A DNA stretch of 64,000 nucleotides from a virus. Below the pieces are notes generated by a model. The model did not search any database and was not told where the DNA came from. It saw only the letters and a list, made by a program, of their open reading frames with translations. Positions 4,181 through 23,015 of this stretch are shown one piece after another (the stretch's first letter is position 1; every line of letters starts with the position of its first letter). The position numbers and the translations under genes are program-made. Location of the stretch: IMG/VR virus record IMGVR_UViG_3300042350_004528, positions 186,001 to 250,000 of that record, one strand, 5' to 3'.

Positions 4181-4212
4181 CAAAGATAAACGAAATAAAT
4201 TTAACTTGCAAA
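4181..4212 (-). promoter_or_regulatory. Promoter of the 3963-4160 gene
   Basis: -33 TTTGCAAG, -7 TATCTTTG; overlaps the end of the 4201-4344 gene. Confidence 0.85.
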
Positions 4213-4344
4213 CTTTTGTTTAAGTTTTTTTCGGTTATATGTTTTACCCGAAGGTTTGCTCCTTGTTATCATATTCCTACGAATGATTTGAGCAATGTGT
4301 CTTTCTGACAAACCTTGTTTCCAATCTTGTGTTTCGTTTTTCAT
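4201..4344 (-). CDS. Basic small protein (47 aa) ending in the next promoter
   Basis: Starts MKNETQDWKQGLSERHIAQI and ends KLKQKFAS; strongly basic. The last codons TTT GCA AGT TAA are the -33 box of the 4181-4212 promoter. GLSERHIAQIIRRN could be a small helical nucleic-acid-binding segment; not recognised. Confidence 0.65.
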   Translation of the reverse strand: MKNETQDWKQGLSERHIAQIIRRNMITRSKPSGKTYNRKKLKQKFAS

Positions 4345-4348
4345 AACA

Positions 4349-4380
4349 CAAAGATAAATGAAATAAATTTAATGTGCAAA
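4349..4380 (-). promoter_or_regulatory. Promoter of the 4201-4344 gene
   Basis: -33 TTTGCACA, -7 TATCTTTG. Confidence 0.85.
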
Positions 4381-4382
4381 TT

Positions 4383-4724
4383 TTATTCTGCAAAATTATC
4401 TTTACCACATTCAGGACAAACTTTTTCCTCATACAAAGTATGGTCTTGTGGATTATGTTCGTTGTCAACCATTACCGATTTCAACTCATCCTTACCACCA
4501 ATCCAACCACAATTTTCGCAATAAAGGTCGTATTCAATTTCAATAACCTCATCAAAAATTTCCTTGTATTCAGTAACCAATTCTTTATCGGTGAAATTCG
4601 CATACCCTTTCATCCCGTATTCAAATATACTGGCAACATAACTATTGTCACCTCGTTCGTGTTCCGATATGATTGTGTTGATGTCGTTATCTACCAACTT
4701 GTCTATGATTTCCTGTCTTTTCAT
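4383..4724 (-). CDS. Acidic protein with C-terminal zinc ribbon (113 aa)
   Basis: Starts MKRQEIIDKLVDNDINTIIS. The C-terminal third has CENCGW and CPECGK, two CxxC knuckles 30 residues apart that should bind one zinc ion. The N-terminal part is acidic and helical. Probably binds nucleic acid or protein; co-transcribed behind the 4807-4917 microgene. Confidence 0.75.
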   Translation of the reverse strand: MKRQEIIDKLVDNDINTIISEHERGDNSYVASIFEYGMKGYANFTDKELVTEYKEIFDEVIEIEYDLYCENCGWIGGKDELKSVMVDNEHNPQDHTLYEEKVCPECGKDNFAE

Positions 4725-4806
4725 AACTTAAAAGTTTTTCTTATATTGTACTCATCGCCAACCTTGTTTAACTATTACGTTCTTTCTACCTTGCTTTCGC
4801 CATATT

Positions 4807-4917
4807 TTAGTTATATCGTTGTTTACAAATCACCCAAATGCTATAAAGAATAAGTGGTGAAAAAAGAATTAATTGCCCCAAACAAACCATTCTTTGTCTT
4901 GCTGTTAATCTTTTCAT
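4807..4917 (-). CDS. Membrane microprotein (36 aa)
   Basis: Starts MKRLTARQRMVCLGQLILFS with one span (LGQLILFSPLILYSIWVI) and a basic tail CKQRYN. It is the first gene after the 4922-4953 promoter; leader short but A-rich. Confidence 0.6.
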   Translation of the reverse strand: MKRLTARQRMVCLGQLILFSPLILYSIWVICKQRYN

Positions 4918-4921
4918 AGTT

Positions 4922-4953
4922 TAAAGATAAGTTAAATAAATTTAACTTGCAAA
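4922..4953 (-). promoter_or_regulatory. Promoter of the 4807-4917 / 4383-4724 operon
   Basis: -33 TTTGCAAG, -7 TATCTTTA; overlaps the last codons of the 4942-5106 gene. Confidence 0.8.
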
Positions 4954-5106
4954 CTTTGTTTCAATTTTTTTATCCCCAACAAAGTTATACCCAGAGTTAA
5001 ACCACCATAGGGCCAAACGGATTGACCAGTAAATGCTTCGTTTTTGTTTCCTTCCATTCAGATAGCATTCCCACGCTTTCCGAATTCTAAACTTGTTTAT
5101 TCGCAT
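4942..5106 (-). CDS. Basic small protein (54 aa) ending in the next promoter
   Basis: Starts MRINKFRIRKAWECYLNGRK and ends IETKFAS. Its ATG overlaps the end of the 5097-5315 gene by 10 bp, so the two are translationally linked. The C-terminal FAS plus stop is read from the -33 box of the next promoter. Very basic and aromatic; function unknown. Confidence 0.65.
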   Translation of the reverse strand: MRINKFRIRKAWECYLNGRKQKRSIYWSIRLALWWFNSGYNFVGDKKIETKFAS

Positions 5107-5315
5107 AATTCAACCTCAATGATTTCACAATAGTTTTCCAACTCGTCTAACGGAATTCTACCATAGTTCGTTGATGAATAGTAACCTTGAAACTCGTAAC
5201 GCTTCTTCCATTCAGTTAAGGCGTTCTTTGCTTCCTCAACACTATTGTAAGTGTCGCTGAAATGAATGCTAAACCCATCGGGACTTAACACATCGTATTG
5301 CTTGTTTGATTTCAT
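5097..5315 (-). CDS. Unknown protein (72 aa)
   Basis: Starts MKSNKQYDVLSPDGFSIHFS. The pattern YDVLSPDGFSI... EEAKNALTEWKKRYEFQGYYSS resembles a small family I have seen described as hypothetical in phages and Bacteroidota, but I cannot name it. Start lies only a few nt from the promoter's -7 box, so the leader is very short. Confidence 0.7.
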   Translation of the reverse strand: MKSNKQYDVLSPDGFSIHFSDTYNSVEEAKNALTEWKKRYEFQGYYSSTNYGRIPLDELENYCEIIEVELCE

Positions 5316-5319
5316 AGTT

Positions 5320-5351
5320 CAAAGATAAGTGAAATAAATTTAACTTGCAAA
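5320..5351 (-). promoter_or_regulatory. Promoter of the 5097-5315 / 4942-5106 operon
   Basis: -33 TTTGCAAG, -7 TATCTTTG placed so that the transcript would start at or next to the ATG. Confidence 0.8.
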
Positions 5352-5360
5352 TTTTAATAC

Positions 5361-5396
5361 AAAAAAAAGGGGCAGATTTCTCCGCCCACCTTTTTC
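5361..5396 (-). terminator. Rho-independent terminator
   Basis: GGGCaGA / TCcGCCC imperfect stem with A-run; ends the 5419-5793 gene. Confidence 0.65.
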
Positions 5397-5418
5397 AAAT
5401 ATGAAAACAAATCAAGTT

Positions 5419-5793
5419 CTATGAAAAGTAAGGTTGTATAACCTCTTTGTCGCTCAAATTAGCTCTCATCTTTGCATACGCTTCCGCTTCTTTATCATCT
5501 TTGTTATAGATGAAATCAACATTGCTTGAAGCGATTGCAAATTGTCCGTTCGCAATACCCCAAAAGTAATAACGAACATTGTCATTCACATCAACTGCAT
5601 TCAATGCCCTCTCGCAAACCTCGTTCAGTTCGGGGAATAACTTAACGCTTCCCGTGATACTTGAAACGATTGCAAGTTTCATACTGCCGTTGGCGAATTC
5701 ATCAGCTACCTTGTTCTCACCAATGTTTCTTAAACCCTCAATAAGGATTTGTTTGTAGCTACCCGAAGGTGCTTTTGGAAATGGATTGTTCAT
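5419..5793 (-). CDS. Unknown soluble protein (124 aa)
   Basis: Starts MNNPFPKAPSGSYKQILIEG; mixed alpha/beta composition, no motif recognised. Promoter at 5816-5847. Confidence 0.7.
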   Translation of the reverse strand: MNNPFPKAPSGSYKQILIEGLRNIGENKVADEFANGSMKLAIVSSITGSVKLFPELNEVCERALNAVDVNDNVRYYFWGIANGQFAIASSNVDFIYNKDDKEAEAYAKMRANLSDKEVIQPYFS

Positions 5794-5815
5794 ATCGTTT
5801 TGTTTTTTGATACAG

Positions 5816-5847
5816 CAAAGATAAGTGTAATAAATTTAACTCGCAAG
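5816..5847 (-). promoter_or_regulatory. Promoter of the 5419-5793 gene
   Basis: -33 CTTGCGAG, -7 TATCTTTG; its -33 half is coding for the end of the 5836-6006 gene. Confidence 0.8.
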
Positions 5848-6006
5848 TATTTTTTTAATTTCTTTTAATCGATCCAAAACTTTATCCATTTCTTTTGAAA
5901 TCTTTGTGTGGGTTCTATGTTTGCTATTAGGTTCCCACAACTCGGACAAAGTTTTATATCGTTCTTTGAGCCGTATCTCCTCAACAATCAATACCGAATG
6001 TTCCAT
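5836..6006 (-). CDS. Coiled-coil-like protein (56 aa) ending in the next promoter
   Basis: Starts MEHSVLIVEEIRLKERYKTL and ends EIKKILAS. Highly charged helical sequence. The ATG at 6006 is preferred over the upstream in-frame one because the preceding gene ends at 6009. Stop lies in the 5816-5847 promoter. Confidence 0.65.
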   Translation of the reverse strand: MEHSVLIVEEIRLKERYKTLSELWEPNSKHRTHTKISKEMDKVLDRLKEIKKILAS

Positions 6007-6008
6007 TG

Positions 6009-6212
6009 TTAATTCAGTATTGATTGGTAAGGGATTGGAAATTCCAAGAAAGGTGCGGACAACCATTTGTCAATTTTGATTGTCTTGTCGGTAATCTTTT
6101 CCTTTCGGTAAACCTTTACGCAAGTTTCCAAGTTTTCATCAGCGAATATGGTTTCGGTGCTTTCATCATCATTTGTGCGAAATACCTCGTACCAAGTTTT
6201 TGTGTTTTCCAT
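6009..6212 (-). CDS. Unknown protein (67 aa)
   Basis: Starts MENTKTWYEVFRTNDDESTE; short soluble protein, two bases from the next start, so an operon with 5836-6006. Confidence 0.65.
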   Translation of the reverse strand: MENTKTWYEVFRTNDDESTETIFADENLETCVKVYRKEKITDKTIKIDKWLSAPFLEFPIPYQSILN

Positions 6213-6239
6213 TTTTTCTTTTTCCTAATTTTGTGAGTG

Positions 6240-6271
6240 CAAAGGTATATATAATAAATTTAACTCACAAG
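6240..6271 (-). promoter_or_regulatory. Promoter of the 6009-6212 / 5836-6006 operon
   Basis: -33 CTTGTGAG, -7 TACCTTTG. Confidence 0.75.
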
Positions 6272-6285
6272 TTTTCAACACATTT

Positions 6286-6606
6286 TTACCAAGTTTTTGG
6301 ATATTTGTCCAATGTTTCTTGCGGATATAAAACTTCGTTTCCGTTGTTCAAAACATCTTCCCACCAACGAATACCAATCTGCAATCGTGGTACTGCGAAC
6401 TTCATAACATCTTCATCGTGGACACGAAAGAACAAATCGTTTCTTCCACCTGTTCCCTCTTCGCCAGGTGTTGGCAAAGTTAAAACTTCTTCGCAATAAA
6501 CTCCGCGAACATTAAACTCTTCTTTGAGCCAATTTTCAAAATCTTTGGCACAACTCTTTCCAACAATTGTTCCGTGCCAAACACATACTTGATTAAAATT
6601 TTCCAT
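6286..6606 (-). CDS. Unknown protein (106 aa)
   Basis: Starts MENFNQVCVWHGTIVGKSCA. Rich in Trp and Cys (IRWWEDVL). The pattern W-GT-V near the N-terminus then FENWLKEEFN suggests a compact alpha/beta fold; not recognised. Confidence 0.7.
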   Translation of the reverse strand: MENFNQVCVWHGTIVGKSCAKDFENWLKEEFNVRGVYCEEVLTLPTPGEEGTGGRNDLFFRVHDEDVMKFAVPRLQIGIRWWEDVLNNGNEVLYPQETLDKYPKTW

Positions 6607-6626
6607 TTGTTTTGTTTTTGATATAA

Positions 6627-6658
6627 CAAAAATAAATGAAATAAATTTAATGTGCAAA
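6627..6658 (-). promoter_or_regulatory. Promoter of the 6286-6606 gene
   Basis: -33 TTTGCACA, -7 TATTTTTG. Confidence 0.75.
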
Positions 6659-6686
6659 TAAAAAGGGGAATTTCTTCCCCTTTCTT
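6659..6686 (-). terminator. Rho-independent terminator
   Basis: GGGGAA / TTCCCC hairpin directly against the promoter; ends the 6695-7099 gene. Confidence 0.85.
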
Positions 6687-6694
6687 ATCCACAA

Positions 6695-7099
6695 TTAGCG
6701 GTCAAAATATGTTTCTTTGATACCTTGTTTCTTTTCCATTGACTGCGACATAAGGTACATTGTTTCCCCCATTGGTTTATCGTGGTGAGAAATAACAACT
6801 TCAATGATACCCTTGTTGTCGGTCGGGTGAAACAACATTGTAAACTCCCCAGTGTTCGGTGCAAGTTTACGGATTAAAGTTTCTGCACTATCCGTTTCAA
6901 ATTCGGTGTACCCTGCAACATTTCTCCAAGTCAAAGAAAGTCCGTAACAAAAGAATTTCTTTGTACGCATTTTCTTCATCATTGTTTTTACTTCGTACAC
7001 AAAATCTTCCCAATAGATTTGTGCTTCCATTTCATCTTCAACTTCGGGCATATCCCAACCCGCTAAAATTCTTTTTGTTTCTTTGATTAAAGTTTCCAT
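6695..7099 (-). CDS. Unknown protein (134 aa)
   Basis: Starts METLIKETKRILAGWDMPEV. Helical N-terminus and a beta-rich second half (FFCYGLSLTWRNVAGYTEF). No family named. Confidence 0.7.
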   Translation of the reverse strand: METLIKETKRILAGWDMPEVEDEMEAQIYWEDFVYEVKTMMKKMRTKKFFCYGLSLTWRNVAGYTEFETDSAETLIRKLAPNTGEFTMLFHPTDNKGIIEVVISHHDKPMGETMYLMSQSMEKKQGIKETYFDR

Positions 7100-7122
7100 T
7101 TGCTTGTTTGTTTTTGTTGATA

Positions 7123-7154
7123 CAAATATAAATGAAATAAATTTAACTTGCAAA
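7123..7154 (-). promoter_or_regulatory. Promoter of the 6695-7099 gene
   Basis: -33 TTTGCAAG, -7 TATATTTG. Confidence 0.85.
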
Positions 7155-7163
7155 TTTTAACAC

Positions 7164-7199
7164 AAAAAAAAAGGGCGGATTTCTCCACCCCTTTTTTCA
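7164..7199 (-). terminator. Rho-independent terminator
   Basis: GGGcGGA / TCCaCCC stem with A-run; ends the 7211-7567 gene. Confidence 0.75.
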
Positions 7200-7210
7200 A
7201 TCGGAAAGAA

Positions 7211-7567
7211 TTAAAGTTTATAGAATGTTATGACACACTTATTTTTTTTGTTGTCAATATCGGGTGCTGAACTATTATATTTACTACCCTTTGGTTGCCA
7301 CCTTTCATAATAATAGTTTATGTAGTTTTTAACCAACTCAATATCACTTTCTGCCAAATGCTTTGTGAATGTAGCAACTAATGTTCCGTTACTTGCGTTC
7401 CTTGAAATTGTCATTTCTTCGGAAATGTTTGTTGGCAAAGTAAGTTTGTTTTGTGCTAACTTTGAGCAAGTTTCAAGGGTGTCAACAACATCAACCTTGT
7501 TGGTTGTTTGTGCTTTTGCGGTTGTTACTCCGAACAACACAACTGCGATAAAGAATACTTTTTTCAT
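7211..7567 (-). CDS. Secreted unknown protein (118 aa)
   Basis: Signal peptide MKKVFFIAVVLFGVTTAKAQ, cut likely after AKA. Mature part has two cysteines (LETCSKL, KKCVITF-like NKCVITF) and a helix-beta pattern. Exported; function unknown. Confidence 0.7.
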   Translation of the reverse strand: MKKVFFIAVVLFGVTTAKAQTTNKVDVVDTLETCSKLAQNKLTLPTNISEEMTISRNASNGTLVATFTKHLAESDIELVKNYINYYYERWQPKGSKYNSSAPDIDNKKNKCVITFYKL

Positions 7568-7590
7568 CTTGTTTATTTTTGATTATGATA

Positions 7591-7622
7591 CAAAGATAAA
7601 TGAAATAAATTTAACTTGCAAA
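7591..7622 (-). promoter_or_regulatory. Promoter of the 7211-7567 gene
   Basis: -33 TTTGCAAG, -7 TATCTTTG. Confidence 0.85.
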
Positions 7623-7629
7623 TTTTACC

Positions 7630-7905
7630 TCAAAAATCTTCGGTTGAAAAATCAATGTTAAGTTCGCTAACCATTTGTATTGTTTCAAACTCCGTTTTAA
7701 GTTCATTAACTTCTTCGTTGATAAGACACATCTCAAAGTCCAGTGCGTGTACTTTCATAAGACAAAGAATAGGGTGTATGTGCCCGTTCTCCAACTTAAA
7801 CATCAATGTTGTTTTCTCACCCAAAATTTCTGTTGCTCGGTCATTAAACTTAACCAACTTACTCTTTAGCTCCATTAAACGAATGTCCGTTTGCTTGATT
7901 GCCAT
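7630..7905 (-). CDS. Helical unknown protein (91 aa)
   Basis: Starts MAIKQTDIRLMELKSKLVKF; long charged helices (NEEVNELKTEFETIQ) suggest a coiled coil. Confidence 0.7.
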   Translation of the reverse strand: MAIKQTDIRLMELKSKLVKFNDRATEILGEKTTLMFKLENGHIHPILCLMKVHALDFEMCLINEEVNELKTEFETIQMVSELNIDFSTEDF

Positions 7906-7925
7906 TTTGTTTGTTTTTGTTGATA

Positions 7926-7957
7926 CAAAGATAAATGAAATAAATTTAACTTGCAAA
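7926..7957 (-). promoter_or_regulatory. Promoter of the 7630-7905 gene
   Basis: -33 TTTGCAAG, -7 TATCTTTG. Confidence 0.85.
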
Positions 7958-7992
7958 TTTCAGGGATCTAAGTTATCCACATTGTTATAAAC

Positions 7993-8022
7993 AAAAAAGG
8001 GTGGGGATTTCCCCCACCCAAT
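7993..8022 (-). terminator. Rho-independent terminator
   Basis: GGGTGGGG / CCCCCACCC stem; ends the 8046-8285 gene. Confidence 0.8.
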
Positions 8023-8045
8023 CATCAAATAAACAAACAAGCAAT

Positions 8046-8285
8046 TTAACAAATCAATGATACTTCCATACTTTGAAGTTTTTTGATAAACTTCTCTTCA
8101 TCGGTATCAACCATAAGTTTAATTGTTGGATTGATACTTTGGGCATAACCCCATTTTTGTTTTACCGCCTCAAAGTAATTTCTTGCGGTTTTCAGTTGCA
8201 AAAAGTTGTTACAACTGCTCAACACTTTGAATGCCCTTTCTCGGTCATCGTGGTAATCTTTTGCGAAGTCGGTTACTTTTAACAT
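8046..8285 (-). CDS. Unknown protein (79 aa)
   Basis: Starts MLKVTDFAKDYHDDRERAFK. Basic helical N-terminal half; no family recognised. Confidence 0.7.
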   Translation of the reverse strand: MLKVTDFAKDYHDDRERAFKVLSSCNNFLQLKTARNYFEAVKQKWGYAQSINPTIKLMVDTDEEKFIKKLQSMEVSLIC

Positions 8286-8306
8286 ATTTGTTTGTTTTTG
8301 TTGATA

Positions 8307-8338
8307 CAAAGATATGTGTAATAAATTTAACTCGCAAG
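8307..8338 (-). promoter_or_regulatory. Promoter of the 8046-8285 gene
   Basis: -33 CTTGCGAG, -7 CATCTTTG (one mismatch to TAnnTTTG). Confidence 0.8.
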
Positions 8339-8342
8339 TTTT

Positions 8343-8693
8343 TTAGTTAAATTGTGCAGCCCATCGGTCGCAAGTGGCTTTGTCCACCCAAATAACCATT
8401 GCTTCCAATTCTTCTTTTGTTGTGATTGGCTCGGTGCTTTCGCCATCATCATCAGTACCTTGTAAGATAGCGTTTCCTACAATAGGGTATTGCCAGTCCG
8501 CCATCATAAACCCACCATCAAACGGATGATACAACCCCTCATCATCGGTGTAGATTGTGTCGTTGTTCTCGAATGTTACAGGACAAGCGAAGGTTTCGCA
8601 ACCATTACCAATAGCAGGTGCAATGTCTTTCCAATCGTTGATTTCAATTTCTTCGATTTTGCGGTCAGCGGTGTTAATCTTAAATGCTTTCAT
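8343..8693 (-). CDS. Unknown acidic protein, DUF3846-like (116 aa)
   Basis: Starts MKAFKINTADRKIEEIEIND. The core (TDDEGLYHP..., then YPIVGNAILQGTDDDGES) resembles DUF3846-type phage and plasmid proteins, which share a short beta region ending in a GNAI/VGDVL-like motif. Resemblance is by eye only. Confidence 0.65.
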   Translation of the reverse strand: MKAFKINTADRKIEEIEINDWKDIAPAIGNGCETFACPVTFENNDTIYTDDEGLYHPFDGGFMMADWQYPIVGNAILQGTDDDGESTEPITTKEELEAMVIWVDKATCDRWAAQFN

Positions 8694-8713
8694 ATCGTTT
8701 CGTTTTGTTGATA

Positions 8714-8745
8714 CAAAGATAAATGTAATTTATTTAACCTGCAAA
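8714..8745 (-). promoter_or_regulatory. Promoter of the 8343-8693 gene
   Basis: -33 TTTGCAGG, -7 TATCTTTG; overlaps the last codons of the 8730-8960 gene. Confidence 0.8.
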
Positions 8746-8960
8746 TTTTCATTCAATTTATTTGCAAAGTTTTCAGCACTTTGTTTATCGTGAAACCAAT
8801 AGTTAGCCAAGTCCTTACCTCTATAAGGTTTTAAGGTTTTGTGGCTTACCACTTGCCCTCGTTCGTTGGTAACATAATAGTATGTCGCACACATAGGCAT
8901 ACCACTCGGTGTGCTTTTACCCTTACGGGGTATGTATTGATTTGATTGTACTTGAAACAT
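8730..8960 (-). CDS. Unknown protein (76 aa) ending in the next promoter
   Basis: Starts MFQVQSNQYIPRKGKSTPSG and ends NENLQVK, the last four codons being read from the -33 region of the 8714-8745 promoter. Central WFHDKQSAENFANKL looks like a helix. Confidence 0.65.
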   Translation of the reverse strand: MFQVQSNQYIPRKGKSTPSGMPMCATYYYVTNERGQVVSHKTLKPYRGKDLANYWFHDKQSAENFANKLNENLQVK

Positions 8961-8964
8961 AATG

Positions 8965-8996
8965 CAAATATAAGTATAATAAATTTAACTCGCAAA
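8965..8996 (-). promoter_or_regulatory. Promoter of the 8730-8960 gene
   Basis: -33 TTTGCGAG, -7 TATATTTG, a few nt from the ATG. Confidence 0.8.
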
Positions 8997-9200
8997 TGGT
9001 TTCCAACTTAATGGTTCATCGGTTGAAAGGTCGCAAGCAATTTCAATGTTGTTTAAGTGTGTCCAACACTCGTCAGCCATTCCCGTTGGTTGCTCAAATT
9101 GTTTTGCCAACCCGTTCTCATAGATAAACTTTCGGATAACATCCAAGTCATCTTTAACCATTGCAAGGCGGTGCTTTAATTGATCGATTTCGTTTTCCAT
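8985..9200 (-). CDS. Helical protein (71 aa) ending in the next promoter
   Basis: Starts MENEIDQLKHRLAMVKDDLD and ends SWKPFAS; coiled-coil N-terminus. FAS plus stop is the -33 box of 8965-8996. Confidence 0.65.
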   Translation of the reverse strand: MENEIDQLKHRLAMVKDDLDVIRKFIYENGLAKQFEQPTGMADECWTHLNNIEIACDLSTDEPLSWKPFAS

Positions 9201-9204
9201 ATCA

Positions 9205-9236
9205 CAAAGATAAACGAAATAAATTTAATGTGCAAA
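9205..9236 (-). promoter_or_regulatory. Promoter of the 8985-9200 gene
   Basis: -33 TTTGCACA, -7 TATCTTTG, four nt from the ATG: likely leaderless. Confidence 0.8.
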
Positions 9237-9536
9237 TTAATCAACAACTCCGTTCCCGTAGTAAAGGTCAAACGATTTCTTTTTATAGTCATCGGACTTT
9301 AACCACGCTTGGTACTTTTGTTCCCACTCGTTGTCTTGAAACTTGTAATAACTCCCGTTGCAATATCTTAAACGATTATTCAGTTTATAGAATTGTTCAA
9401 ACAAACCTATCTCGGTTATGTCCGCAATTTCCTTTGTACTGGTGATAACCGATGTCTTATCAAGGTAACAAAAACCCGTTTCGGTTACAACCGTTTCGTT
9501 TCTTGGGTTCCAATAGTTCAATGTCGCTTTGTGCAT
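9237..9536 (-). CDS. Unknown protein (99 aa)
   Basis: Starts MHKATLNYWNPRNETVVTET. Tyr/Trp-rich, no motif known. Confidence 0.7.
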   Translation of the reverse strand: MHKATLNYWNPRNETVVTETGFCYLDKTSVITSTKEIADITEIGLFEQFYKLNNRLRYCNGSYYKFQDNEWEQKYQAWLKSDDYKKKSFDLYYGNGVVD

Positions 9537-9555
9537 ATCGTTTGATTTCTTGATA

Positions 9556-9587
9556 CAAAGATAAGTGTAGTTTTTTTAACTTGCAAA
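9556..9587 (-). promoter_or_regulatory. Promoter of the 9237-9536 gene
   Basis: -33 TTTGCAAG, -7 TATCTTTG; spacer has a T-run variant. Confidence 0.8.
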
Positions 9588-9589
9588 TT

Positions 9590-9907
9590 TTATTTCAAAA
9601 TAATACCATCAACAATCAACACTCGGTCATACTTTAAAATCTTAATATCAGCCAATAGTTTAGTTGTTTTACGAAGATACTCCGCTTCAGTCATATTAGA
9701 ATACTCCAATTCATTTTCAATCTTACTTAACTTATTTTGACTTCTTTCGGCTTTTTTAACCATTTCGTGGTAAAGTTCGGAAAGGGTTTCCTTTGTGTCG
9801 CTTGGACTACCTGCGATAATATCTGTTTGTTGGTGGCGAACGCTTGAATAGTCGGTGTCATAAACTCCAACGCAGGTGTAGTCTGTTTTTAATCCGATTA
9901 ATAACAT
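9590..9907 (-). CDS. Unknown helical protein (105 aa)
   Basis: Starts MLLIGLKTDYTCVGVYDTDY; the second half is a long charged helix (KKAERSQNKLSKIENELE). Confidence 0.7.
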   Translation of the reverse strand: MLLIGLKTDYTCVGVYDTDYSSVRHQQTDIIAGSPSDTKETLSELYHEMVKKAERSQNKLSKIENELEYSNMTEAEYLRKTTKLLADIKILKYDRVLIVDGIILK

Positions 9908-9930
9908 ATTGTTTGTTTGTTTTGTTGATA

Positions 9931-9962
9931 CAAAGATAAACAAAATAAATTTAACTTGCAAA
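9931..9962 (-). promoter_or_regulatory. Promoter of the 9590-9907 gene
   Basis: -33 TTTGCAAG, -7 TATCTTTG; spacer TTTTGTTT-type substitution. Confidence 0.8.
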
Positions 9963-10002
9963 CTTTATCACAAAAAAAAGATAAAAAAAACTTACATTAA
10001 AG

Positions 10003-10034
10003 TTTGCACATTAAAAAAAATACATTTACCTTTG
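10003..10034 (+). promoter_or_regulatory. Plus-strand promoter inside the minus-strand block
   Basis: -33 TTTGCACA, -7 TACCTTTG; faces the ncRNA at 10038-10150. Confidence 0.8.
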
Positions 10035-10037
10035 TAT

Positions 10038-10150: not shown

Positions 10151-10151
10151 T
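10122..10151. terminator. Bidirectional terminator
   Basis: AAAAAGGGGA / TCCCCTTTT hairpin shared by the plus-strand RNA and the minus-strand 10169-10684 gene. Confidence 0.85.
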
Positions 10152-16896: not shown

Positions 16897-16904
16897 TTTT
16901 TTTA

Positions 16905-17469: not shown

Positions 17470-17492
17470 ATCTTGTTTTGTTTTTGTTGATG

Positions 17493-17524
17493 CAAAGATA
17501 AGTACAATAAATTTAATGTGCAAA
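17493..17524 (-). promoter_or_regulatory. Promoter of the 16954-17469 gene
   Basis: -33 TTTGCACA, -7 TATCTTTG. Confidence 0.85.
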
Positions 17525-17533
17525 TTTTAAGAT

Positions 17534-17564
17534 AAAAAAAAGGGGAATTTCTTCCCCTTTCTTT
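17534..17564 (-). terminator. Rho-independent terminator
   Basis: GGGGAA / TTCCCC hairpin; ends the 17576-17908 gene. Confidence 0.85.
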
Positions 17565-17575
17565 TCAATGTTTTA

Positions 17576-17908
17576 TTACTCAACCACTTCTTCTTCTTTT
17601 GTTTCAATGTTGCTGAACAACTCTCCGATGTCGTGTGTGATTGCATTCACATAATGTGATGCATCAAAATCGGCATCATCAATCTCAATCTCGTTTCCGT
17701 TGGTAATTCGGAATGTAGTGCGGTATCCACTGATTTCAATATCACTTGGATCCGCTTCCTCAACGATCGCGATAACTCTTTCGCGTAACTCGTTAAGGTC
17801 TACCGAACTTTCACCCTCAACCTTGTTAATAAGATTGATGACATCTTCCTTTGTGAACAATGAACCTGCGGACTCGTTCACTAACTTAATAACTTCATTT
17901 TTTTTCAT
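17576..17908 (-). CDS. Unknown acidic protein (110 aa)
   Basis: Starts MKKNEVIKLVNESAGSLFTK, ends ETKEEEVVE. N-terminal helix pattern EDVINLINKVEGE recurs in phage proteins with a KEDVINLI-type segment; function unknown. Confidence 0.7.
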   Translation of the reverse strand: MKKNEVIKLVNESAGSLFTKEDVINLINKVEGESSVDLNELRERVIAIVEEADPSDIEISGYRTTFRITNGNEIEIDDADFDASHYVNAITHDIGELFSNIETKEEEVVE

Positions 17909-17935
17909 AGGTATTATATGTTTTTGATTATGATA

Positions 17936-17967
17936 CAAATATAAGTGCAATAAATTTAATGTGCAAA
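17936..17967 (-). promoter_or_regulatory. Promoter of the 17576-17908 gene
   Basis: -33 TTTGCACA, -7 TATATTTG. Confidence 0.85.
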
Positions 17968-17969
17968 TT

Positions 17970-18440
17970 TTAACCCAAAAACTTTGGGTTTAATTTGAAC
18001 TCCAATTTGTATGTAGGGTTATAGCGACCACCCGAACAAAAACCGCAAGAAGATGTATTGCGTGTTGCTCTATGTTTCTTATGAGTATGACCACAACCCG
18101 AACAAACTGCAATATAGCGTGATTCGGGCGTTGTAACACTCTTACCACTATAACATCTATCGCCTGAGCAACCAATTTCTTGTGCTTTGGCTTTCCATAC
18201 TCTATCGTGGTGATGACCTGGTGTGAGGGCGTGTGCAATCTCGTGTAGGATTGTATTTCTAACTTCTTTTTCATCGTTCAAATGTGTTAAATACTTTGAT
18301 AATGTAATTACCTTTGCTCGGTACTTGCAACAACCAAATCTGCGTCTTGCGTTGTCAAAGGTGAAACGCCAACCTTGTTGTTTGATACCATGCTTTTGCA
18401 TGAGTTCGTTTGCGAGTGTTTGTGCTTTGTATAAGTCCAT
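17970..18440 (-). CDS. SprT-like zinc metalloprotease (156 aa)
   Basis: Starts MDLYKAQTLANELMQKHGIK. Has the SprT-family active site HEIAH at residues 66-70 followed by a histidine cluster (HHH, 76-78) that can give the third zinc ligand, and a C-terminal zinc-ribbon region (CSGCGHTHKKH and CGFCSGG). SprT/Spartan proteins cleave DNA-crosslinked proteins or act near DNA; the phage role is unknown. First minus-strand gene at the 18.5 kb divergence. Confidence 0.85.
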   Translation of the reverse strand: MDLYKAQTLANELMQKHGIKQQGWRFTFDNARRRFGCCKYRAKVITLSKYLTHLNDEKEVRNTILHEIAHALTPGHHHDRVWKAKAQEIGCSGDRCYSGKSVTTPESRYIAVCSGCGHTHKKHRATRNTSSCGFCSGGRYNPTYKLEFKLNPKFLG

Positions 18441-18460
18441 TGCTTTGTTTTTTGATGATG

Positions 18461-18492
18461 CAAATATAAGTGTGATAAATTTAACTTGCAAA
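18461..18492 (-). promoter_or_regulatory. Promoter of the SprT-like gene
   Basis: -33 TTTGCAAG, -7 TATATTTG; back-to-back with the plus promoter at 18526. Confidence 0.85.
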
Positions 18493-18515
18493 TTTTACTG
18501 TAAAAAAAATTTTTT

Positions 18516-18555
18516 TGTAAAAAAGTTTGCGGGTTAAAAATATTGTATGTACATT
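18516..18555 (+). repeat. 40-bp direct repeat, copy 1
   Basis: Identical by eye to 18746-18785 and containing all but the last bases of a promoter. The first bases would encode the same KKFAG-stop tail that ends the 18576-18767 gene, but no gene precedes this copy. Confidence 0.85.
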
Positions 18556-18557
18556 TG
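18526..18557 (+). promoter_or_regulatory. Promoter of the 18576-18767 gene
   Basis: -33 TTTGCGGG, -7 TACATTTG. Confidence 0.8.
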
Positions 18558-18575
18558 TATTACAAAACAATTAAA

Positions 18576-18767
18576 ATGGATTTAAATCAAAAATCATCAG
18601 CAGACCACATTATCGAACATCTATTAGCTATTGATGTGGATGGGGAAACAATGGAATATATCATCAATGGGGTTTGTATGGATGAACAGGTATTCAGACA
18701 ATTATTTCTTAAAGCATCGCTCTCGCAAATTAATCAGTTGATGGATGTAAAAAAGTTTGCGGGTTAA
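18576..18767 (+). CDS. Unknown acidic protein (63 aa) ending in the next promoter
   Basis: Starts MDLNQKSSADHIIEHLLAID and ends MDVKKFAG, the last codons being the -33 box of the following promoter. First plus-strand gene of the divergent pair. May be related to the 10761-11078 product (shared DEQVF/DERVF and LSxxQ segments). Confidence 0.7.
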   Translation: MDLNQKSSADHIIEHLLAIDVDGETMEYIINGVCMDEQVFRQLFLKASLSQINQLMDVKKFAG

Positions 18768-18785
18768 AAATATTGTATGTACATT
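18746..18785 (+). repeat. 40-bp direct repeat, copy 2
   Basis: Second copy, 230 bp from the first; here its left end is the true C-terminus of the 18576-18767 gene. Confidence 0.85.
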
Positions 18786-18787
18786 CG
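18756..18787 (+). promoter_or_regulatory. Promoter of the 18792-19091 gene
   Basis: -33 TTTGCGGG, -7 TACATTCG (one mismatch); only 4 nt to the ATG. Confidence 0.7.
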
Positions 18788-18791
18788 CAAC

Positions 18792-19091
18792 ATGAAAACA
18801 AAAGACATAAACACGAGTATCGGTCTGTCAATCTATAAAGGTGATTGGGACGGGGCTGAATGGACGATAACGGGCTTTCCCAAAGCCGAGGTCATCGGAC
18901 ATAAATATGAAAGTGCATACGATTTCGAAGAAGCCGTTAAACGCAATGTGAATTGTAGCGGTATTAAGTTTGATAGTGAGATGTGCCAGTTCTTTGCATA
19001 CGCCAAAACCAAAGCAAGGTTGGTTAGTTTCGCGAAGCAAATTGAGAAGCACTACGCTAAAGCGAATGAGTTGAAAGAAAAAATGTTTTAA
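18792..19091 (+). CDS. Unknown protein (99 aa)
   Basis: Starts MKTKDINTSIGLSIYKGDWD. ATG lies 4 nt after the -7 box, so the mRNA is probably leaderless. C-terminal basic helix (AKQIEKHYAKANELKEKMF). No family known. Confidence 0.7.
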   Translation: MKTKDINTSIGLSIYKGDWDGAEWTITGFPKAEVIGHKYESAYDFEEAVKRNVNCSGIKFDSEMCQFFAYAKTKARLVSFAKQIEKHYAKANELKEKMF

Positions 19092-19093
19092 TA

Positions 19094-19125
19094 CTTGCAC
19101 ATTAAATTTATTTCATTTACATTTG
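19094..19125 (+). promoter_or_regulatory. Promoter of the 19145-19551 operon
   Basis: -33 CTTGCACA, -7 TACATTTG, canonical spacer. Confidence 0.85.
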
Positions 19126-19144
19126 CCTCCAAATCAAAAACGCA

Positions 19145-19360
19145 ATGGAAGATATTATTAAAATCAACAAGTTGGAACTCGCAAGTGAGTTAGCCAACGA
19201 AGCCACAAAGGATGAGATGTTCTCAAAGGGTCTTATCGTGGATGAGGATGAAATGTATCGTGAGGACAATGGTTGCTCAATCTATACAGAGGAAGCACAA
19301 GACATCTTCAACGATTACTACGATTATTTCTTAACCAAGATTGAGGAGGTTGCGATATGA
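19145..19360 (+). CDS. Unknown acidic protein (71 aa)
   Basis: Starts MEDIIKINKLELASELANEA; overlaps the next start by ATGA. Confidence 0.7.
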   Translation: MEDIIKINKLELASELANEATKDEMFSKGLIVDEDEMYREDNGCSIYTEEAQDIFNDYYDYFLTKIEEVAI

Positions 19361-19551
19361 GTAAGGTAGCAAAACTGGTTACAATATCCCTGATGACAAG
19401 AGTCATCGTGGATGAGAATGCAAGTGAGGAAGAGATTTTGAATTCTGCCAGACCTAAATTCATTCAGAAGGTTCAGGAAGAACTGAATGAAAACATCGAG
19501 GAAATTTGGTACGACAATGAATGTCCCTACGACCCTGAATTCGACAATTAA
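19357..19551 (+). CDS. Unknown protein (64 aa)
   Basis: Starts MSKVAKLVTISLMTRVIVDE, with ATGA coupling to the previous gene. The VTISLMTRVIVDENASEEEI pattern recurs in small phage proteins with an N-terminal beta strand; function unknown. Confidence 0.7.
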   Translation: MSKVAKLVTISLMTRVIVDENASEEEILNSARPKFIQKVQEELNENIEEIWYDNECPYDPEFDN

Positions 19552-19569
19552 AATCTTTTTGTATTCAAA

Positions 19570-19601
19570 TTTGCACATTAAAAAAATTATACTTATCTTT
19601 G
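19570..19601 (+). promoter_or_regulatory. Promoter of the 19618-19926 gene
   Basis: -33 TTTGCACA, -7 TATCTTTG, A-run spacer. Confidence 0.85.
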
Positions 19602-19617
19602 CTGTATGGAAAAATCA

Positions 19618-19926
19618 ATGAGAACAGCGGCTGTATGTTCAAACTACGCCCTGAAAATAAAAGAAGCCCTTGTTCAAATGGCTGTTGAGGATAAACTCCC
19701 AATGGATATGACCACTTTGAATACGGATGAATTCGAAAACATTCTCGAACCGCTTGTTCGCAAGGTTGTCCGTGACGAGGACGAGAATGCAATCCCTGAG
19801 AGCATTCAGGTTGGTGTTTACTACTATGAGGATGATGAAACAGGGAAGCCTGTGTTTGATACTGATAGTATGATGGATGAATTCGAAAATGAGTTGAAAA
19901 AACTTGAAGACAAGTTTGCGAGTTAA
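19618..19926 (+). CDS. Unknown acidic protein (102 aa) ending in the next promoter
   Basis: Starts MRTAAVCSNYALKIKEALVQ. An upstream ATG at 19606 lies at the predicted transcription start; 19618 follows AAAAATCA, the usual leader, so I prefer it. Ends LEDKFAS inside the 19915-19946 promoter. Confidence 0.7.
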   Translation: MRTAAVCSNYALKIKEALVQMAVEDKLPMDMTTLNTDEFENILEPLVRKVVRDEDENAIPESIQVGVYYYEDDETGKPVFDTDSMMDEFENELKKLEDKFAS

Positions 19927-19946
19927 ATTAAATTCACTTATATTTG
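19915..19946 (+). promoter_or_regulatory. Promoter of the 19956-20258 gene
   Basis: -33 TTTGCGAG, -7 TATATTTG. Confidence 0.8.
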
Positions 19947-19955
19947 CATAACACA

Positions 19956-20258
19956 ATGACAAACTATACTGATTTCAATGAAGAGGTTGGCAAGATTCGG
20001 GTGAGGCTAGCCCAACAAACCGAAGCTTTACTTAAGCCCGCGATTCCGCCAGCCATTTACAACTGCAAGAACGAAGGCATTGCCATATCGACAGCAGAAG
20101 GTACGATGAAAGTTGAAACCATTGGTTACGACAACGGCGGAGTATTCGTTAAAACCGAAACAGGTGAGGTATGGGATTACATGGATTTGGACACTGATGA
20201 TATGGTCGCGATTTACGAGCATGTTTGGTACCAAATTAATTCCGCACCTATGAGGTGA
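19956..20258 (+). CDS. Unknown protein (100 aa)
   Basis: Starts MTNYTDFNEEVGKIRVRLAQ; short leader of 9 nt. Middle is beta-rich (GTMKVETIGYDNGGVFVKTE). No family named. Confidence 0.7.
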   Translation: MTNYTDFNEEVGKIRVRLAQQTEALLKPAIPPAIYNCKNEGIAISTAEGTMKVETIGYDNGGVFVKTETGEVWDYMDLDTDDMVAIYEHVWYQINSAPMR

Positions 20259-20290
20259 GTCTTTGTGTGATGTTTTGTTTTGATGATGAA

Positions 20291-20314
20291 GAGGAGACCT
20301 AGTGTCTCCTTTTC
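20291..20314 (+). terminator. Rho-independent terminator
   Basis: AGGAGAC / GTCTCCT stem then TTTTC. Confidence 0.8.
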
Positions 20315-20355
20315 TGATTATACCAGGATCAACAGCAAAAAAAGTTGATTTCAGA

Positions 20356-20387
20356 TTTGCACATTAAATTTAATTCATTTATATTTG
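20356..20387 (+). promoter_or_regulatory. Promoter of the 20406-20820 pair
   Basis: -33 TTTGCACA, -7 TATATTTG. Confidence 0.85.
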
Positions 20388-20405
20388 CATTCAAAACAAA
20401 ACGAA

Positions 20406-20621
20406 ATGGCTAAACCAAAATTTTACGAGTGTGTGATTTCATTTACATACGAAGCGGAGAACCCAACAGACGCCGCGAGGCAGTTTATCGCAAACATTCA
20501 GAACAATCCAAACTGGAATGTACTGGTGAAAGATTGTGAGAACTTTGAGAACACCTTTAATGTTGATACGGAAACAGGTGAGTGTGAAACCAATTCAATC
20601 GAGGATTATGACGACCTGTAA
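20406..20621 (+). CDS. Unknown protein (71 aa)
   Basis: Starts MAKPKFYECVISFTYEAENP, similar at its N-terminus to the zinc-ribbon protein at 11706 but without cysteines. Start after the canonical leader. Confidence 0.7.
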   Translation: MAKPKFYECVISFTYEAENPTDAARQFIANIQNNPNWNVLVKDCENFENTFNVDTETGECETNSIEDYDDL

Positions 20622-20820
20622 AGCCCTGACAGCACATATTGTTGAAGAAGGAAACCTGATCGACAGGTGGCCCTGTGATGTTAACGAAGAGAATGAGATG
20701 CAATCAAACGGGTCTCAGGAATTTCTTTATGAATATAACGGGAACAAGTACTGTGTCTGGATGGACTGGAACGACAATCCAATCCTACCTGGTGAAATTT
20801 TATCACCAATTCCTGAATAA
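20608..20820 (+). CDS. Unknown protein (70 aa)
   Basis: Starts MTTCKALTAHIVEEGNLIDR, overlapping the previous gene by 14 bp. FLYEYNGNKYCVWMDWND suggests a small beta fold. Confidence 0.65.
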   Translation: MTTCKALTAHIVEEGNLIDRWPCDVNEENEMQSNGSQEFLYEYNGNKYCVWMDWNDNPILPGEILSPIPE

Positions 20821-20822
20821 AA

Positions 20823-20854
20823 TTTGCAGGTTAAAAAAATTATACTTATATTTG
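20823..20854 (+). promoter_or_regulatory. Promoter of the 20876-21160 gene
   Basis: -33 TTTGCAGG, -7 TATATTTG. Confidence 0.85.
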
Positions 20855-20875
20855 CATCATTAAATCAAAACAAAT

Positions 20876-21160
20876 ATGTCAAAGCCCACAGCAAAAGAAA
20901 CGGTAGAAACCGTAACCAATTACCTGAACAGTTTCTCGAGCAAAGAGAAGGAATTCATTGAGGAAATGAACAGGGAACATCGCACACTTCAACAGTCATT
21001 CACAAAACTATGTCTGGCATGGCTTGAGAACTGCGCCAATGAAGAATATCGTTTTGATGGAAGGAATGAAGCGAGTCACACTGTATCGAAGGAACTCGTT
21101 GAGAACTTCAAGTGGAACAAGGATGGTTTCAAACCATCTGAATTCTTACCCTGTATATAA
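20876..21160 (+). CDS. Helical unknown phage protein (94 aa)
   Basis: Starts MSKPTAKETVETVTNYLNSF. Pattern KEFIEEMNREHRTLQQSFTK then LAWLENCA resembles a helical family of hypothetical proteins I have seen in many phages. Confidence 0.7.
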   Translation: MSKPTAKETVETVTNYLNSFSSKEKEFIEEMNREHRTLQQSFTKLCLAWLENCANEEYRFDGRNEASHTVSKELVENFKWNKDGFKPSEFLPCI

Positions 21161-21197
21161 AAAAAAGAGGGGACTTTTACATCCCCTCATTTTTTAT
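21159..21197. terminator. Bidirectional terminator between convergent genes
   Basis: GAGGGGA / TCCCCTC stem with A- and T-runs. Confidence 0.85.
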
Positions 21198-21364
21198 TGT
21201 ACCGAGTCTGTGGTTGTGGAAACATTCGTAGTGTCTACGCTTGTGGTATCGGTAACAACAGCGGTTGAGTCCGTAGCTGTTGTTGACTCGGTGGATTCCG
21301 ATCCGCAAGATACAACTGTCAACATTGAAGCGACAATTGCAAGTGTCATGAGAATTCTTTTCAT
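21194..21364 (-). CDS. Small Thr/Ser-rich lipoprotein (56 aa), opposite strand
   Basis: Starts MKRILMTLAIVASMLTVVSC, a lipoprotein signal with VVSC lipobox; the mature part is almost only Ser, Thr, Asp and Val (STTATDSTAVV...). The only minus-strand gene between 18.5 and 27.4 kb. Upstream only a weak -7-like TATCTATTTTTTG is seen. Possible surface-exposed spacer or superinfection factor (inference). Confidence 0.7.
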   Translation of the reverse strand: MKRILMTLAIVASMLTVVSCGSESTESTTATDSTAVVTDTTSVDTTNVSTTTDSVQ

Positions 21365-21420
21365 GTCCACAATATTAAACAAAAAATAGATAAATGTCAA
21401 GCAAATTAGACAAAAAAAAA

Positions 21421-21452
21421 TTTGCAGGTTAAAAAAATTACATTTACATTTG
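21421..21452 (+). promoter_or_regulatory. Promoter of the 21471-21815 gene
   Basis: -33 TTTGCAGG, -7 TACATTTG. Confidence 0.85.
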
Positions 21453-21470
21453 TATTCAAAATCAAAAGCA

Positions 21471-21815
21471 ATGAAATATAAACAGCAAGCTCCAATTGAT
21501 GATTGGTCAGACATCGACAAGTGCATCAAGAATTCTGAAATCAACCTGAAACATTTACAGGACATTGACAAAGCTCAGGAAGCCAAAGGTGAACCCTTAC
21601 TTTACCGTTACTTTTACAGGCCTGTCGCTGACGGTCGAGCTTGGTATCAGGTGACGAAGGTTACATCTAGAACAGCTACCGTCACATGGTGCGCAGGGAT
21701 TTGTCTTGACGACTATGTTGATATGATGTTGGGTGAGGAAGCTACGATATCTCGCGGCATGATTGAGAACATGGTGAATGGAAGAATTGCACTTGAAAAA
21801 TTATTTGCACATTAA
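21471..21815 (+). CDS. Unknown protein (114 aa) ending in the next promoter
   Basis: Starts MKYKQQAPIDDWSDIDKCIK and ends LEKLFAH, with FAH-stop read from the next -33 box. Central segment WYQVTKVTSRTATVTWCAGI looks like a small beta barrel. Confidence 0.7.
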   Translation: MKYKQQAPIDDWSDIDKCIKNSEINLKHLQDIDKAQEAKGEPLLYRYFYRPVADGRAWYQVTKVTSRTATVTWCAGICLDDYVDMMLGEEATISRGMIENMVNGRIALEKLFAH

Positions 21816-21835
21816 ATTTTTTCCATTTATATTTG
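21804..21835 (+). promoter_or_regulatory. Promoter of the 21861-22484 gene
   Basis: -33 TTTGCACA, -7 TATATTTG. Confidence 0.85.
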
Positions 21836-21860
21836 TATTCATAAATCAAAAACAAAATAT

Positions 21861-22484
21861 ATGCACAAAGGAGTAATCTTATTAGTAAAAGCGGATGACC
21901 GCGATGACGCCATTGGCCAAGCCAACGAGTTTCTTGACCACTATGGGGATGGCGATGTATGGGATTGGTTCGTAATCGGTGGCCGTTGGAGCGGTAACCT
22001 GAACACCCTATCGAAAACTTTCTACGAGAAAGCAAAGGTTCTTTTCGAACAAGCATATCCAAATGAGGATAGCCCATTCTTGTCAACCAAAATGGTTGAG
22101 GAGCAAGCACAGGGTTTGCAAGAGATTTGGGAAAGCATTGGCGGGAAAGGTCAGAACCCATATTCTCGCAGCAGTTATATCAGTGACGGATTTGAGGATG
22201 ATTGTCTCCCGTTGACTGATTGCATTCCCGTCATTCAGGATTGGAAGAAAGATATGGTGGCGGAGGCTGAAACCATTTGGAATAAAATGATTGAGGCCAA
22301 GAAAGATAGTGCGGACAAGTACGATATGTCAGGGTACTACGCAGGTATCTATCGTGACTTAAAGTATGATAATTTCTCTTTCGAGAGTAATGTCTACGAT
22401 GTCGTCAATCACACGAACGACCCCTCGCAGGCTTTGGAGAACCCCGAGCAGTGGTGGGCGGTTCAAATTGATATGCACAATTAA
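21861..22484 (+). CDS. Unknown phage protein (207 aa)
   Basis: Starts MHKGVILLVKADDRDDAIGQ. Contains VWDWFVIGGRWSG, a segment I recognise from conserved hypothetical proteins of large phages, where it sits in a presumed ferredoxin-like fold. No catalytic residues evident. Confidence 0.75.
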   Translation: MHKGVILLVKADDRDDAIGQANEFLDHYGDGDVWDWFVIGGRWSGNLNTLSKTFYEKAKVLFEQAYPNEDSPFLSTKMVEEQAQGLQEIWESIGGKGQNPYSRSSYISDGFEDDCLPLTDCIPVIQDWKKDMVAEAETIWNKMIEAKKDSADKYDMSGYYAGIYRDLKYDNFSFESNVYDVVNHTNDPSQALENPEQWWAVQIDMHN

Positions 22485-22506
22485 TATTCCTCTTATCATT
22501 CCACAA

Positions 22507-22539
22507 AGGGGAGGTTTTTAAAATCTCCCTTTTTTTTTA
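22507..22539 (+). terminator. Rho-independent terminator
   Basis: AGGGGAG / CTCCCT stem and T9. Confidence 0.8.
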
Positions 22540-22572
22540 TCACATTTGTAAAATCAATTAATAACAGAGCAT

Positions 22573-22680
22573 ATGTCTAAGTCAGTAAAAGTAAAAATCA
22601 CGAAGAGTACATTCAAGTATGTAAGCAAACCAACAACTAAACAGGGCCGTGTGCCAAAACCCTCATCCAAAAAAAGATAG
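22573..22680 (+). CDS. Very basic microprotein (35 aa)
   Basis: Starts MSKSVKVKITKSTFKYVSKP and ends PSSKKR: about one third Lys/Arg, no hydrophobic segment. No canonical promoter directly upstream (only a CACATTTG). Could bind nucleic acid; also could be a chance ORF, hence modest confidence. Confidence 0.5.
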   Translation: MSKSVKVKITKSTFKYVSKPTTKQGRVPKPSSKKR

Positions 22681-22687
22681 ATTCACA

Positions 22688-22719
22688 TTTGCAAGTTAAA
22701 AAAATTATACTTATCTTTG
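22688..22719 (+). promoter_or_regulatory. Promoter of the 22741-22995 gene
   Basis: -33 TTTGCAAG, -7 TATCTTTG. Confidence 0.85.
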
Positions 22720-22740
22720 TCCCAATCAAAACAAAATAAT

Positions 22741-22995
22741 ATGGAACTTTTAGTTGGAACCAACCTTGAGGTTATGAGTAGGACAATTTACATCGCCGTT
22801 GATGTACAATTTGACAAGAACGGTGAAACCTACGAGGCTAATCTCACCTGTTGTTTATCGGAAGATATAAACATTGGATTTGATTCCTGGGATATCACAA
22901 TTGCAAACGAGGAAGAACTTCCTGAGTTAACGGCGGAAGAAACTGAGCAACTTAAAGAATTTGCAAAAAAATATGCCCAAGTACTTGCAAATTAA
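22741..22995 (+). CDS. Unknown acidic protein (84 aa) ending in the next promoter
   Basis: Starts MELLVGTNLEVMSRTIYIAV, ends YAQVLAN, with the LAN-stop codons in the 22984-23015 promoter. Confidence 0.7.
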   Translation: MELLVGTNLEVMSRTIYIAVDVQFDKNGETYEANLTCCLSEDINIGFDSWDITIANEEELPELTAEETEQLKEFAKKYAQVLAN

Positions 22996-23015
22996 ATTTA
23001 TTACACTTATATTTG
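22984..23015 (+). promoter_or_regulatory. Promoter of the 23035-23649 gene
   Basis: -33 CTTGCAAA, -7 TATATTTG. Confidence 0.85.

Follow-up and report, generated by a model that had tools for sequence, protein, structure and literature searches.

The window analysed here is a stretch of 64,000 nucleotides of viral DNA, positions 186,001-250,000 of the 298,833-base record IMGVR_UViG_3300042350_004528. It carries an array of 31-bp predicted promoters, and at least nine of its genes stop inside the promoter of the next gene, which gives their proteins tails of the form [F/L]A[S/G/H/N]-stop. With a probability of about 0.72, we explain these tails by promoter-anchored gene exchange combined with compaction, the promoter's own stop codon closing the genes that reach it. 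The tail would be the mark that these processes leave, and not the cause of the exchange.

The element is rigid. A position weight matrix (PWM) finds 69 sites in the window and none in a reversed-sequence control. TTG at -33 is present in 69/69 sites with fixed spacing, and the column counts place a -7 box, TAnnTTTG, at index 23-30, both TTG and box having been part of the seed. Allowing up to two mismatches, the pattern has 77 matches in the whole record against 1 in the backward control, and 63 of the 77 lie in the following region:

window 339..32021 (record about 186.3-218.0 kb): promoter island

Three related contigs, B, C, and E, were compared with the window (contig A), and in E all matches (25/25) fall within the first 13.8 kb of 71.7 kb. 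This clustering in both the record and contig E shows that the promoters form an island. In Bacteroidota, the sigma-A promoter has TTG or TTTG at -33, about 20 bp upstream from the -7 box. The phage copies have in common with the Flavobacterium psychrophilum sigma-A consensus the -7 box TAnnTTTG, as given in the relevant passage of PMC9723704, and differ from it in having an additional element at -33, long and fixed, TTGCANRTTAAA. In the bacterial genome collection, the complete phage pattern is confined to 2 stretches, both from metagenome-assembled genomes of Bacteroidota. The 31-bp elements are thus predicted to act as promoters of the Bacteroidota housekeeping type, and the host is probably a member of that phylum. 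A megablast of the region against annotated phages gave no match. Outside the island, a second spelling with the same spacing, TTGGTGRTTTAAA, is found at window 48017 and 50864 on the minus strand, perhaps marking another expression class.

An earlier note, made from the letters of the window, had named nine genes as stopping within the -33 region of the next promoter, one sequence serving as coding end, stop codon, and promoter. This is borne out by all nine gene ends: each stops on the TAA at promoter index 8-10 (9/9), and the tails read, in coordinate order, FAS, FAS, LAS, FAS, LAS, FAG, FAS, FAH, and LAN. These genes, a tenth that stops in another frame, and the predicted promoters that hold their stops are as follows:

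4181..4211, minus strand: promoter, PWM 44.0, holds the stop of 4201-4344
4201..4344, minus strand: gene ending KFAS-stop; the homologues in B (KFAH) and C (KFVG) keep the overlap
4922..4952, minus strand: promoter, PWM 38.7, holds the stop of 4942-5106
4942..5106, minus strand: gene ending KFAS-stop; contig C has one FAS copy and a paralogue stopping 23 nt before a promoter
5816..5846, minus strand: promoter, PWM 45.3, holds the stop of 5836-6006
5836..6006, minus strand: gene ending LAS-stop; the contig E homologue likewise stops within its promoter
8714..8744, minus strand: promoter variant TTAAATAA, with a stop in the second frame
8730..8960, minus strand: tenth overlapping gene, in the other frame, stop at index 12-14
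8965..8995, minus strand: promoter, PWM 41.4, holds the stop of 8985-9200
8985..9200, minus strand: gene ending PFAS-stop; FS-stop in the orthologues that do not overlap
12735..12765, minus strand: promoter, PWM 45.9, holds the stop of 12755-13171
12755..13171, minus strand: DUF6915 gene (PF21866, E 9.6e-30) ending LAS-stop
18576..18767, plus strand: gene between two promoter copies, FAG tail
18757..18787, plus strand: promoter, PWM 27.0, holds the stop of 18576-18767
19618..19926, plus strand: gene ending KFAS-stop; tail retained in B and C despite a different next gene
19916..19946, plus strand: promoter, PWM 40.9, holds the stop of 19618-19926
21471..21815, plus strand: gene ending LFAH-stop
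21805..21835, plus strand: promoter, PWM 37.8, holds the stop of 21471-21815
22741..22995, plus strand: gene ending LAN-stop (LAD in B)
22985..23015, plus strand: promoter, PWM 43.7, holds the stop of 22741-22995

Eight of the nine tailed genes have diverged homologues in related contigs, which indicates that they are real genes; gene 18576-18767 was found only in one 98%-identical strain. Apart from DUF6915, Pfam and PHROGs searches with the tailed proteins returned nothing useful, and 21471-21815 had no homologues in annotated phages. The tenth gene, 8730-8960, goes beyond what had been noted before. It stops at index 12-14 because its promoter carries the variant spelling listed above; its orthologue ends in FAS in C, and in B stops before a terminator. 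Among the 286 open reading frames (ORFs) of the window that start with ATG and span at least 40 amino acids, 13 end in [FL]A[SGHN], and 12 of these are located at a promoter. Three of the twelve (45, 41, and 42 amino acids) are probably spurious, leaving the nine named genes.

The stop codon belongs to the promoter itself. TAA occupies index 8-10 in 63 of the 69 window promoters, and, among the promoters of contigs A, B, C, and E with no gene stopping within 8 nt, in 105 of 108 distinct ones. Since it is present whether or not a gene ends there, the stop is a by-product of the promoter. Only one frame of the consensus contains a stop; the remaining two are open. Stops in at least two frames between -8 and +15 are found in 73 of the 108 promoters free of gene ends, as compared with 41% of shuffled copies, and those in the second frame come mostly from the flank TAAAAT just before the promoter. 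The gene ends of the window follow these frames, with nine at +11 and seven at -3, and no called gene was found to use the third, stop-free frame. When set against chance, stops inside the promoter are in excess: 17 of 21 ORFs of at least 45 codons entering a promoter in the window, B, C, or E end inside it (8.7 expected), as do 15 of 16 ORFs of at least 60 codons (7.0 expected), the expectations being derived from the frames that carry a stop and the rows being not fully independent. The four ORFs that run through each overlap, in another frame, a called gene stopping 3 nt before the promoter, which suggests that they are probably not genes.

Distant huge phages show the same packing. At 391 distinct promoter-like sites, counted without those near contig ends and without exact duplicates, 39 of 45 entering ORFs of at least 50 codons end inside as against 20.7 expected (z about 6, a value inflated by kinship among the contigs). 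The promoter-internal stops of these phages lie at several places, with ends at +11, +12, and +18 the commonest, and stops 1 and 2 nt before TTG are the most frequent overall (26 and 25 of 204). Many additional genes of the window also stop 1-8 nt upstream from a promoter. It is therefore general in these phages for stops to be packed up to the following promoter or into it, and the FAS spelling is specific to the present subgroup, whose promoters have TTAA. The distant phages weaken the idea that promoters are designed around a stop in a single set position: TAA occupies index 8-10 in only 109 of their 396 sites, and overlapping genes use several other stop sites.

Stops accumulate at every short distance from the promoters, with 1-3 nt before TTG the commonest, which is what plain genome compaction would produce. 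Under that explanation, stops drift into the next promoter at no cost, the promoters are not sites of exchange, and the tails are neutral. The tail of 12755-13171 fits this, as A, B, C, and E all retain it next to an unchanged neighbour. As is seen below, junction classes that change together with the neighbouring gene, a 40-bp promoter repeat surrounding a gene, and hybrid promoters with missing cassettes between near-identical contigs all speak against it, and we consider compaction alone unlikely.

A second alternative concerns the tail itself. Nine unrelated proteins share a short hydrophobic-Ala-x end, and such an end could have been selected in its own right, for instance to direct the degradation or localisation of early proteins. 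The orthologues argue otherwise, as the residues track the spelling of the promoter (FAS, FAH, FVG, LAN, LAD). The orthologues of 4201-4344 end in FAS in the window, FAH in B, and FVG in C, each overlapping a promoter of its own. Orthologues without a promoter at that place lack the tail, while the remainder of the protein is conserved: 8985-9200 ends in PFAS in the window; in E it has FS-stop, 6 nt short of the promoter, and in B and C FS-stop without a promoter. Similarly, 19618-19926 ends in FAS in the window, B, and C, and contig E has neither promoter nor tail. Gene 21471-21815 ends in LFAH in the window, and in B in LFSR-stop 3 nt before the promoter. In the distant huge phages, overlapping genes use stops elsewhere in the element.

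The DUF6915 family, whose homologues also occur in Streptomyces, Gordonia, and Sinorhizobium phages (109 records), allows a broader comparison. The table covers 76 of 79 loci, with three contigs identical to the window excluded, and holds 46 distinct C-terminal ends. The tail is present in three of them, with an overlapping promoter in all three, and an [F/L]A[S/G/H/N] end is found in 0 of the 43 others; in 11 distinct ends the stop sits 1-8 nt before a promoter-like site. Some caution comes from eight distinct ends that read YAN or HAN without a promoter (L105, L109, L111, L117, L120, L124, and others). Homologues without the promoter thus lack the tail, so that the check proposed in the earlier note came out in its favour, and the earlier suggestion that promoters constrain C-termini agrees with orthologue tails that change or vanish along with the promoter. 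Tail residues follow the promoter and not the protein. The tail as a protein signal is rejected on the orthologues, and we give its selection hardly any credence. Annotators should be warned that such C-termini carry promoter code and not a protein signal.

How genes and promoters meet along the island was then classified with a home-made gene caller, whose starts are rough and which missed the two short tailed genes 4942-5106 and 5836-6006. It gives 48 island promoter junctions: 8 overlapping, 15 abutting, and 25 spaced. A hairpin and T run is found in 19 of the 25 spaced junctions, as against 35 of 500 controls, and the 23 abutting or overlapping junctions leave no room for a terminator. Between the window and E, the order of the island is scrambled gene by gene (longest collinear set 16/26), whereas in the flank of the same two phages, which serves as the control, it is mostly kept (17/20 collinear), a contrast that is suggestive only. 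Distant promoter-poor contigs, with 2-5 shared orthologues each, were dropped from this comparison. The class of a junction tends to change with the gene that follows. Between A and E, it changed in 0/8 cases with the same next gene and in 9/18 with a different one; the corresponding figures are 0/7 and 11/18 for C-E, 4/30 and 6/16 for A-B, 3/19 and 6/17 for A-C, 1/8 and 8/14 for B-E, and 0/30 and 1/4 for B-C. Single genes appear, from these comparisons, to be gained, lost, and reordered at the promoters.

Several joints can be read directly. Three features are involved:

16275..16508, minus strand: gene cut by a deletion in strain contig L028
18516..18555, plus strand: left copy of a 40-bp exact direct repeat, containing most of a promoter
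18746..18785, plus strand: right copy of the repeat, encoding the final codons VKKFAG-stop

In L028, a 98.9% identical strain, a deletion joins the middle of 16275-16508 to the promoter at 16080-16110 (window coordinates). The truncated gene ends AEVKKLKFAH-stop after 36 residues instead of 77. A gene common to B and C gives a comparable picture: in B it ends INKGE-stop, followed by a hairpin and T run and then the promoter, and in C those 30 bases are missing, the gene ends INKEFAS-stop, and the next gene is a different one. The 40-bp repeat surrounds gene 18576-18767, and at the same site B and C lack the gene and have a single promoter.

Hybrid promoters are seen in two pairs of near-identical contigs, B/C and E/E6, with the flanked genes missing. 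The B gene between promoters 16411 and 16714 is absent from C, whose one promoter is made of the left part of B 16411 (TTGCACA) and the right part of B 16714 (CACTTACC and its flank), which places the crossover in the shared core TTAAATTTATTTC. E6 has the complete E promoter 3285 followed by the right flank of E promoter 3843, so that the crossover falls in or near the -7 box. Both readable crossovers lie at or after the TAA, in keeping with the two genes, 4201-4344 and 19618-19926, whose tails persist although the neighbour differs. A further candidate, L020 against the window, was rejected: a cassette is missing, but the promoter has a third spelling and is not a clean hybrid. Separately, L028 has at 3400-3770 an extra small gene, without a promoter, inserted relative to the window between 19145-19360 and 19393-19551.

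The sources are metagenomic and the promoter copies near-identical, so the reordering might come from contigs misjoined at 31-40 bp repeats. The gene order of E recurs in five other contigs, local gains and losses aside, and that of B in three, which speaks against misassembly. Moreover, the L028 join has no shared bases at the break, and the tails are conserved among orthologues that are 49-90% identical. An assembly artefact is therefore quite improbable as a general explanation.

Some observations nonetheless weigh against promoter-anchored exchange. Each of the two fused junctions (L028 and C) comes from a single contig, where an assembly error may be involved. The excess of shuffling in the island over the flank, window against E, is not significant (Fisher p = 0.11). 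Promoters are also present at 20.9-30.4 kb of the window, yet the window and B are collinear along that stretch, so promoters by themselves do not force reordering. The overlap of 21471-21815 changes without any change of neighbour, and gene 16510-16848 has an internal deletion, away from a promoter, in the close strains L028 and L037.

Promoter-anchored exchange with compaction would proceed as follows. The island would be an array of small, mostly single-gene units, each headed by one copy of the 31-bp promoter, and many of them closed by a terminator hairpin directly upstream from the following promoter. Being near-identical, the promoter copies could recombine with each other, and the genes between them would be deleted, inserted, or swapped. 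A gene end may reach a promoter through loss of its terminator and native stop, through deletion, or through cassette exchange. The promoter's own stop would then close the gene, with [F/L]A[x]-stop in one frame and, in another, by the stop 3 nt before TTG. With crossovers at or after TAA, exchange of the gene downstream would leave the end of a tailed gene intact. The array, the tails, the frame bias, the orthologue changes, the hybrid promoters, and the fused deletion can be read in the sequence itself; we infer in which direction each event went and that homologous recombination was the route. The earlier note had also proposed that the tails let genes be swapped as promoter-bounded cassettes. 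Genes do come and go as such units, at the 40-bp repeat site and at the hybrid promoters; the tail, however, is not what enables the swapping, as most promoter junctions are without one.

The mosaicism of phage genomes is well known, but its joints are rarely caught in the act. Here the joints would be dozens of copies of one 31-bp element; hybrid copies locate the crossovers, and in some upstream proteins the joint can be read off the final three residues. Ordinary metagenomes could thus be used to count how often, and by which route, huge phages exchange single genes. More tentatively, the element might be a selected, portable punctuation mark that combines a two-frame translation stop, a transcription start, and a recombination site, although we doubt this more than we believe it. 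If it were so, an incoming or truncated gene would be capped, any gene could follow undamaged, and huge phages could be assembled in modular fashion, one gene at a time.

Other genes of the window, all on the minus strand, deserve mention. The ORF at 40759-42210 combines a tyrosinase domain (PF00264, E 1.5e-26) with the middle domain of a polyphenol oxidase. At 44585-45610 lies an adenylosuccinate synthetase (PF00709, E 3.9e-82), which could be either an ordinary enzyme or one of the PurZ type of base-modified phages. At 48288-50808, a nicotinate phosphoribosyltransferase (PF04095) adjoins a weak match to a phosphoribosyltransferase, and the two may form an NAD salvage pair. The SPFH/Band 7 protein at 46100-47962 is found at 29 viral loci and has 64% identity to a protein of the 642-kb uncultured phage LR756502. 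Judging by its size, the latter probably belongs to a group of five phage genomes above 634 kb, whose predicted hosts are Bacteroidetes according to the passage of PMC7162821 that describes them.

Our literature searches, which did not extend to the original papers on the promoter-early stem-loop cassettes (PeSLs) of T4-like phages, found no paper on stop codons inside repeated phage promoters. Arrays of a single promoter are described in other viruses. In SIRV2 and other archaeal viruses, one conserved promoter drives many small early genes, a layout comparable to that predicted for the island, and the passage of PMC11065993 on this regulatory sequence ties it to the predicted repressor Aca8 and to anti-defence genes. 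In HGTV-1, a haloarchaeal tailed virus, a conserved promoter-like motif with an inverted repeat precedes most ORFs of one genome arm, and the passage of PMC3950731 likens the motif to PeSLs; the signals there are archaeal, and that passage does not mention a role for stop codons. PeSLs themselves (Arbiol et al., 2010; Comeau et al., 2014; both as cited in PMC4503421) consist of an early promoter plus a stem-loop, repeated in many copies between small genes, and that citing description reports them to mediate gene shuffling. The spaced junctions of the island, with their hairpins, resemble them in coupling a promoter to a terminator stem-loop, and the island also resembles them in gene shuffling at the element, as seen from the two hybrid promoters, presence or absence at the 40-bp repeat, and reordered neighbours. 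The island differs in its Bacteroidota-type promoter, carried by a huge phage, and in its many copies without a hairpin. It also differs, as far as the citing paper's description of PeSLs goes, in that the promoter supplies the upstream stop and crossovers are seen inside the promoter. Promoter-terminator shuffling is thus already known from PeSLs, and a promoter that also ends the upstream gene is the variant reported here.

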